Assembly (NCBI GenBank): GCA_023245865.1
Contig: JAHFJN010000001.1
Coordinates: 62,001-126,000 of the forward strand
DNA length: 64,000 nt
Reading direction: 5' to 3'
From: Candidatus Peribacteria bacterium
GTDB taxonomy: Bacteria; Patescibacteriota; Gracilibacteria; Peribacterales; Peribacteraceae
This document shows, piece after piece, positions 20,198 to 51,248 of this stretch. Each line of letters begins with the position of its first letter. The first letter of the stretch is position 1. The position numbers were made by a program, and so were the translations under genes. Under the pieces are notes generated by a model. That model was given only the letters and a program-made list of their open reading frames with translations, had not been told where the DNA came from and ran no database searches.

Positions 20198-20609
20198 GGG
20201 GATGACAGGCTTCGACAGCGTGATTCTACGTTTGCATTGCTTCGTTCCGGGATGGCGACGGTTCCCGTTACCCACTTGTCGCACACGATAGTTGCCAAAA
20301 CAACTGCCACAGGTCGACTCGGAATTGCTGGCCGCTTCGCGCAAGTGAAGTCCGCCTTCGTTCCGGCGTTCGCCTAAGTCCGCACTTGCTGCGGACACGT
20401 CTCGCCTTCGATTCTCGCTACGAGGATGAGACGTCATTAGCGAGGTTGGCGCGTCGCGTGACGCGACGGCGCGACAATATTTTCGCGTCATCACTCACTC
20501 CTTTTCTTTGTTTCTTTCTTAAATAGGATGTGAGAACTGAAAGAAACATGACCGTACAGGCATCTGGCGTACACGTTGGACCCGGGTTCAACTCCCGGCA
20601 TCTCCACCA
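20198..20609 (+). ncRNA. ssrA: tmRNA (ssrA)
   Basis: The 5' end GGGGATGACAGGCTTCGAC pairs with 3' CATCTCC to form the tRNA-like acceptor stem (one G-U pair); CCA is encoded at 20607-20609. The T-arm is CCGGG, TTCAACT, CCCGG. The resume site is ATAGTTGCC, matching the AGUC-GCN pattern of other tmRNAs, with GCC (Ala) as first tag codon at about 20293. The tag reads A-KTTATGRLGI ... KSAFVPAFA and stops at TAA 20375-20377, giving 27 residues. Tags are usually 8-15 residues long ending in ALAA or similar, so length and C-terminus are unusual. Total length is 412 nt. Confidence 0.95.
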
Positions 20610-23633: not shown

Positions 23634-23813
23634 ATGGAGGCCCGCCGCCACGGGGGGTGAAGAGGAAGCCCTGTCCTTGCGAAGCAACATGACGAAACGA
23701 ACTGCGAAGCCTTGGAGCAGTTCGTGAGGAATCACAGGGCGGGAGGAGGAGGATTGGCGGCGGAGCATTTCTTTAGTCCTTTCTTGTTGCCCTGACAAGA
23801 AAGGACAATGCTC
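23634..23813 (+). repeat. Structured dispersed element, copy A
   Basis: A ~175-nt element with nested helices. P1 is CCGCCGCCA (23642-23650) with TGGCGGCGG (23755-23763). P2 is GCCCTGT (23668-23674) with ACAGGGC (23734-23740). P3 is ACGAACTGC (23697-23705) with GCAGTTCGT (23717-23725) around loop GAAGCCTTGGA. The 3' hairpin is a 12-bp stem, 23776-23787 with 23795-23806. A further GAGCATT/AATGCTC pair brackets the 3' hairpin. Copy B (51072-51248, opposite strand) shares the single-stranded words and P2, but P1 and P3 are rewritten with pairing kept. It lies between the SLH gene stop and the Gly/Met-rich gene promoter, antisense to both. Confidence 0.8.
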
Positions 23814-51071: not shown

Positions 51072-51248
51072 GTTCTTTCTTGTCAGCCACACAAGAAAGA
51101 ACCAAAGAAAGTCACCGTCCAGTGAGCCATACTCCGCCCGCCCTGTCATTCCTCGCAGACGTCTCCAAGGCTTCGACGTCTGCTTCGTCATGGTGGCTTC
51201 GCACAGGGCTTCCCCTTCACCCCCGCGCACTGGACGGCGCCCCTCCAT
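51072..51248 (-). repeat. Structured dispersed element, copy B
   Basis: This is the same architecture as 23634-23813, on the minus strand. Plus-strand coordinates of pairs: P1 51115-51124 with 51228-51237 (10 bp, CCGTCCAGTG type). P2 51140-51146 with 51203-51209 (identical to copy A). P3 51155-51163 with 51175-51183 around the conserved 11-nt loop. The 3' hairpin is 51072-51083 with 51091-51102. Relative to copy A, five of nine P1 pairs, five of nine P3 pairs and one 3'-hairpin pair changed on both sides. It lies between the stop of a membrane-protein gene and the pheS promoter. Confidence 0.8.

Follow-up and report, generated by a model that had tools for sequence, protein, structure and literature searches.

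The chromosome of this Candidatus Peribacteria bacterium carries a dispersed, hairpin-folding repeat that represents a previously unlisted family in Candidatus Peribacteraceae; no prior description of it was found in literature searches. On balance, the element is probably a mobile repeat of the non-autonomous kind: a trans-acting enzyme, outside the classes tested here, would act on one of its DNA strands in folded, single-stranded form. The stretch analysed, hereafter the window, is the 64,000 nucleotides at positions 62001-126000 of contig C3 (1.07 Mb; host genome 1.1 Mb).

Two copies, A and B, had been described in the window from its letters alone. Both are real: the alignment of A with B spans the entire length, and the unpaired words that they were said to share are present in each. 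The coordinates given in the earlier note were accurate to within a few bases, except that copy A ends at its hairpin foot, at 23806. The features are as follows, in window positions.

23634..23806, + strand: copy A, whole element (long form, end class 1), from alignment, profile and model searches
23635..23640, + strand: copy A G-rich 5' leader TGGAGG, outer boundary soft; kept in most of the 16 own copies
23642..23650, + strand: copy A P1 5' arm CCGCCGCCA, from covariation
23651..23667, + strand: copy A conserved unpaired purine-rich stretch CGGGGGGTGAAGAGGAA, its words invariant across copies
23668..23674, + strand: copy A P2 5' arm GCCCTGT, which covaries in relatives
23677..23687, + strand: copy A variable small hairpin P2a, TTGC-GAA-GCAA; other copies pair with different sequence
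23697..23705, + strand: copy A P3 5' arm ACGAACTGC, from covariation
23706..23716, + strand: copy A P3 loop GAAGCCTTGGA, conserved across copies
23717..23725, + strand: copy A P3 3' arm GCAGTTCGT, from covariation
23734..23740, + strand: copy A P2 3' arm ACAGGGC, from covariation
23755..23763, + strand: copy A P1 3' arm TGGCGGCGG, from covariation
23768..23806, + strand: copy A 3' end module, T-rich TTTCTTTA followed by the 12-bp hairpin GTCCTTTCTTGT(TGCCCTG)ACAAGAAAGGAC, whose foot is the 3' boundary
51072..51248, - strand: copy B, whole element (long form, end class 1, variant P1), from alignment and profile search
51072..51102, - strand: copy B 3' terminal hairpin GTTCTTTCTTGT(GTGGCTG)ACAAGAAAGAAC
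51115..51124, - strand: copy B P1 3' arm CACTGGACGG, from alignment with A and fold
51140..51146, - strand: copy B P2 3' arm ACAGGGC, from alignment with A
51155..51163, - strand: copy B P3 3' arm GACGTCTGC, from alignment with A and fold
51175..51183, - strand: copy B P3 5' arm GCAGACGTC, from alignment with A and fold
51203..51209, - strand: copy B P2 5' arm GCCCTGT, from alignment with A
51228..51237, - strand: copy B P1 5' arm CCGTCCAGTG, from alignment with A and fold

As had been claimed, five of the nine pairs in each of P1 and P3 are changed on both sides between A and B with pairing intact, and the 12-bp 3' hairpins differ at one pair. P2, described as invariant, is indeed identical in A and B but covaries among the relatives, so that its invariance holds within the host genome only. 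The MFE z-scores against dinucleotide shuffles were -3.8 for A and -6.4 for B, and both copies beat all 200 shuffles. The exact loop word GAAGCCTTGGAG is found nowhere else in the window. Their likeness is not due to chance, since the chromosome contains 16 full copies (nhmmer E-values down to 1e-51) and the relatives contain hundreds. The window also holds a tmRNA gene at 20198-20609 (standard Rfam match RF00023, tag AKTTATGRLGIAGRFAQVKSAFVPAFA).

An iterated profile search of the whole of C3 recovered the 16 full copies together with 4 shorter copies that have the same ends. By self-comparison of C3, the element is the only evident dispersed DNA repeat; most other matches come from tandem repeats or from genes related to each other, and no insertion sequence occurs in multiple copies. 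A covariance-model search of host and relatives, proposed in the earlier note as a check, found many further copies. With a model built from 11 own-genome copies and then run on the relatives, the element was detected in 35 of 74 genomes of the same family, Candidatus Peribacteraceae (21 of 40 genera), at 0 to 32 copies per genome. It was detected in none of ~280 other genomes of the class searched with the covariance model, and all of the named contigs with core-pattern matches (57 of 57) are from Candidatus Peribacteria(ceae) or Peregrinibacteria; the family therefore appears to be restricted to Peribacteraceae at covariance-model sensitivity. The statement that the layout matches no named family also stood: Rfam scans by gathering threshold and by E-value were empty, and one copy had no match, including to HEARO/omega-RNA (RF02033), even at E=10. 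A known RNA family was ruled out on these scans.

Comparison of the copies revealed a modular anatomy. In the core, a G-rich leader is followed by the P1 stem, which encloses GGGGGGTG...GGAG, then by a T-rich stretch and lastly by a 3' hairpin with its foot as the boundary. Long forms consist of this core with an inserted P2-P2a-P3 domain, and short forms of the core alone; the latter, with their own covarying 3' hairpins, are found in the genomes G000, G007, G009, G010, G023, G042 (13 places), G059 and G063. The 3' boundary is placed at the hairpin foot because two events end there. One is the match between copy A (C3 85637-85806) and C3:841136-841305, exactly 170 bp at 98.8% identity with unrelated flanks, and the other is the left breakpoint of a head-to-head doublet in G073, which was duplicated with its spacer as one unit at two loci; a third locus in G073 carries a diverged doublet.

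Two end classes were distinguished. A P1 of the type CCGCCGCC/CCGCGCGC goes with the TTTCTTTG hairpin (58:1), and a P1 of the type GGCGCGCC with the TTTTGGCTCCACC hairpin (47:0), a linkage with a Fisher p of 1.5e-29 when related copies are counted as independent. Both classes can occur within one genome. Interior identity is 0.72 between copies from the same genome with different ends, compared to 0.60 between copies from different genomes with any ends. Since the ends are tightly linked to each other while the interior tracks the genome and not the end class, ends and interior evolve as separate modules. The two ends of the element are unrelated (TGGAGG... and ...GAAC) and form no terminal inverted repeats, and no target-site duplication was visible on inspecting the flanks of the host's own copies. 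CRTG, a candidate guide tetranucleotide of the IS200/IS605 type, precedes most of the own copies but not those of the relatives.

Several copies are associated with other repeats. Two copies (C3:413337-413519 and 652595-652782) have a 20-bp perfect palindrome, CCTGCCTGCCGGCAGGCAGG, inserted in their P3 loop, and in relatives other small repeats, of the CCTGTCCTGAGCCTGTCGAAGGG type and the GCCCGCCGGCC...GGGCGAAGGCCGG type, are nested within other copies; the elements therefore seem to attract or tolerate insertions. Three of the four host short forms (C3:432598-432790, 447898-448124 and 1014635-1014855) are preceded by a separate palindromic repeat, TCCTTCGACTACGCTCAGGATGACAC or a close variant, as if palindrome and short form travel together. 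The copy at C3:652595-652782 is chimeric, with a left half like type B, a right half like type A and a partly unpaired P3, and so points to copies having recombined or converted one another. In one genus (G050-G054; loci L095, L097, L099, L125, L136 and L147), an A/C-rich stretch of ~30-60 nt (AACAAACAAAACAACATAC type) lies upstream of the element; it may be a target that the element prefers, or the element itself may extend further 5'. Locus L230 was considered as a low-GC island and rejected, its low GC being judged an artefact of N stretches.

The covariation proposed in the earlier note is real: as regards copies that keep sequence and lose pairing, absence of covariation, and membership of a known family, the results all went in the element's favour. 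Among the host-genome copies, 275 of 275 pair cells are standard, with 29 double changes. Arms of wholly different sequence and perfect complementarity are seen directly in the host copies (CCGCCGCCA/TGGCGGCGG, CCATCGCCA/TGGCGATGG, CCGTCCAGTG/CACTGGACGG and CCGGCCGTG/CACGGCCGG). In an alignment of 94 copies (91 distinct, from many genera), pairing is kept in 97.1% of cells and both-sided changes occur at 24 of 25 pairs (557 cells), counts that are inflated by the fitting of the alignment to the structure; the copies are also related to one another. The covariation score of this alignment is 0.645, compared to 0.172 for shuffles and ≤0.13 for slid registers. When relatives were compared two by two at eight orthologous insertions, 48 of 200 helix pairs differed, of which 27 are compensated, 6 changed via G-U and 15 broken, with some register errors remaining. 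The retention of pairing in place at orthologous copies suggests function, or gene conversion, after insertion.

The covariation is nearly Watson-Crick-only. Of the element's standard pairs, 1.7% are G-U; in 46 host tRNAs the share is 4.5%. Across element copies, G-U is about as rare as A-C (36 and 35 occurrences), and therefore neither strand is favoured; when only well-paired copies are counted and one poorly paired closing position is dropped, few occurrences remain, and they lean slightly towards G-U. The low G-U content argues, if not decisively, for Watson-Crick pairing of DNA.

The presence of the element varies between the congeners G069 and G070, in which occupied and empty orthologous sites can be compared, with junctions that are not base-precise. 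Copies are intergenic, and their flanking genes are more often convergent or co-directional than divergent. The orientation of the element follows replication. The terminus inferred from skew lies at ~0.48 Mb in G050; in the host it is at ~0.35 Mb, and in both genomes a gene for an Xer-type recombinase adjoins it. With origin and terminus placed from GC skew only, the top strand is on the C-rich (lagging) strand in all 13 copies of G050, in 23 of the 29 copies that could be assigned in G069 and in 15 of the host's 20, and thus the C-rich strand of the element is on the lagging-strand template. Pooled over these three related genomes, the orientation agrees with GC skew in 51 of 62 copies (p=2.8e-7), and local skew at the relatives' copies agrees as well (53/73, p=1.4e-4). 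Orientation tracks replication more strongly than it tracks transcription.

An alternative, which we regard as unlikely, is that the element is a functional structured RNA which has spread as a repeat and whose fold is selected as RNA; it could be a small RNA, or could act as part of the 3' UTR on the mRNA of the gene upstream. Transcribed structured repeats have a precedent in the bcr repeats of Bacillus cereus (PMC3446304), and the strong covariation, the conserved unpaired words GGGGGGTGAAGGGGAAG, the P3 loop GAATCCTTGGA and GAGGAG, and the compensated changes in place at orthologous copies would all fit such an RNA. So would two features of position: in 44 of 65 relatives' copies the element shares its strand with the upstream gene, and several host copies begin within ~13 nt of a stop codon. 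However, flanks are unrelated between copies, and aligning them revealed no conserved promoter. As had been reported, copy A runs antisense to its two neighbours, copy B being co-directional with both of its own. G-U pairs, scarcer than in the host's own tRNAs and no commoner than A-C, also speak against an RNA, as does the lagging-side top strand in 51 of 62 copies, since transcribed genes usually prefer the opposite orientation. The earlier note had left the choice between a structured RNA and a mobile element, non-autonomous and with an RNA or hairpin-DNA function; dispersal, presence and absence in congeners, doublets and short forms favour the second, while rare G-U, the lack of a conserved promoter in the aligned flanks and replication-linked orientation disfavour the first.

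The orientation with GC skew would also be expected of a chromosomal DNA site for replication or segregation, such as a priming or restart hairpin or a site for gyrase or an architectural protein, kept at fixed loci with the fork setting its orientation. Maintenance of the structure in place at orthologous loci agrees with this, and the interior is homogeneous per genome, as if co-evolving with one host protein. We consider such a site improbable, as about half of the same-family genomes have no copy (model R1), the number varies from 0 to 32, and the positions differ between congeners. Less probable still is that selection or mutation acts alone, without an active recombinase: purging from the lagging-strand template of top strands that are strongly G-rich (runs of G3-G6), and restoration of stems by quasi-palindrome template switching, would suit compensated changes that are often full Watson-Crick swaps without G-U intermediates, but leave the dispersal, end-class linkage, doublet duplication and conserved unpaired words unexplained.

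To identify an enzyme for the mobile repeat, genomes were searched for Y1, reverse transcriptase, TnpB, RRXRR and tyrosine recombinase, searches that highly diverged members could escape. Y1 transposase (PF01797) is absent from G000, G050, G069, G070, G073, G019 and G014, which are 97-99% complete and all contain copies, most being copy-rich; mobilisation by RAYT/Y1 was rejected on this basis. Reverse transcriptase (PF00078) is absent from G050, G070, G073, G019, G047, G048 and G012, and retro-mobility was rejected because most copy-rich genomes lack it. The host itself carries two ~360-aa reverse transcriptase genes (C3:606943-607566 and 851087-851698), which by size only are probably of the diversity-generating type. 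TnpB (zinc ribbon) is absent from 13 of the 14 genomes searched, which disfavours mobilisation by TnpB/omega-RNA. The search for IscB (RRXRR) gave no matches, yet the control genomes were equally silent. Tyrosine (Xer-type) recombinases number mostly one or two, and at most a few, per copy-rich genome, and likewise in copy-free genomes, for which reason integron-like recombination was rejected; G050 and G000 have one at the skew-defined terminus. No autonomous parent with the same ends was found: all hairpins of this kind in the host chromosome are within the 20 copies, and the relatives' loci examined yielded none either. No gene family was retained as co-occurring beside the copies, the clusters being housekeeping neighbours at orthologous loci or ORFs through elements.

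Known systems share some of these properties. REP/REPIN (BIME) sequences, mobilised with RAYT (TnpA_REP), are palindromes of 20-40 bp (to ~65 nt) with a GTAG/GTGG-type foot and a cognate Y1 gene (PMC3733652, PMC6006769). The present element is likewise dispersed, palindromic and intergenic, lying near gene 3' ends and mostly between convergent or co-directional genes, occurs as singles and head-to-head doublets in genome-specific families, and has a G-rich foot beside the hairpin, here GGAG-like and variable. It differs in its length of 110-170 nt, its two different end structures with an optional inner domain, and the many copy-rich genomes without a RAYT/Y1 gene. In IS608 and ISDra2 (IS200/IS605), a replication-linked orientation bias is a documented signature of single-strand transposition, arising because they move as single strands (PMC5371812). 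Like this family and its non-autonomous derivatives, the element has end hairpins that differ from each other, lacks both terminal inverted repeats and any evident target duplication, and shows an orientation linked to the lagging-strand template (51/62); its copy-rich genomes lack TnpA (Y1) or TnpB, its sequences differ, and its 3' boundary is the hairpin foot. The bcr repeats of the Bacillus cereus group are lineage-restricted, structured, 100-400 bp long and mobile without a known dedicated enzyme, and carry a TTTAT motif (PMC6542083, PMC3446304). The Peribacteraceae element is similarly lineage-restricted, dispersed, non-coding and structured, with mobility but no known dedicated enzyme, whereas the TTTAT-motif repeats were not seen in it. 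We know of no modular end classes of this kind in bcr repeats.

HEARO/omega-RNA repeats are likewise structured, RNA-like and of comparable length, and some have no gene beside them; the element is set apart from them by the empty Rfam scan at E=10 (one copy) and the absence of TnpB in 13 of 14 genomes. DDE-type MITEs differ in the terminal inverted repeats and target-site duplication that are not visible here, retroelements (group II-like, retron) in the reverse transcriptase that seven genomes including G050, G070 and G073 lack, and integron attC sites in their integron integrase and cassette arrays, the present copies being dispersed with mostly one or two tyrosine recombinases, as in copy-free genomes. 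The element would work like REP/REPIN and IS200-type elements and have a lifestyle like that of bcr repeats, but it lacks tested defining features of REP/RAYT (size, enzyme), IS200/IS605 (enzyme), DDE MITEs (terminal repeats, duplication), HEARO and retroelements.

The sequences themselves show the dispersal, covariation, modular ends, presence and absence, doublet duplication and replication-strand bias; for the mobile repeat, we infer both a single-stranded DNA substrate and a dedicated enzyme. The P1 stem and 3' hairpin would serve as matched recognition structures when the DNA becomes single-stranded at the fork, the element's C-rich strand then lying on the lagging-strand template. A trans-acting recombinase outside the tested classes would cut and rejoin at the ends, leaving no obvious target duplication. 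P1 and the 3' hairpin, ~110 nt, would form the minimal mobile unit; the inner P2-P3 (~70 nt) would be an optional, genome-specific module that brings the total to ~170 nt, and that turnover or gene conversion would keep uniform within each genome. Counting against the mobile repeat are the conservation of P2-P3 though short forms dispense with it, the lack of an enzyme in these searches, the imprecise empty sites and the pairing maintained in place. We tentatively hypothesize, as a possibility that is itself rather unlikely, that the element is mobilised at the fork by an enzyme that is not HUH/Y1, reverse transcriptase, TnpB or a dedicated tyrosine recombinase, and that P2-P3 has a second, host-specific function which keeps it folded at fixed loci.

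Bacteria of the Candidate Phyla Radiation have very small genomes. The host has no multi-copy insertion sequence, yet it maintains 20 copies of a structured repeat. The family offers a clean case for telling RNA-level from DNA-level covariation. A strand signature of single-strand transposition without the usual enzyme class points to a further mobility or maintenance system, and the two linked end classes, together with the short and long forms, give a clear handle for finding it.
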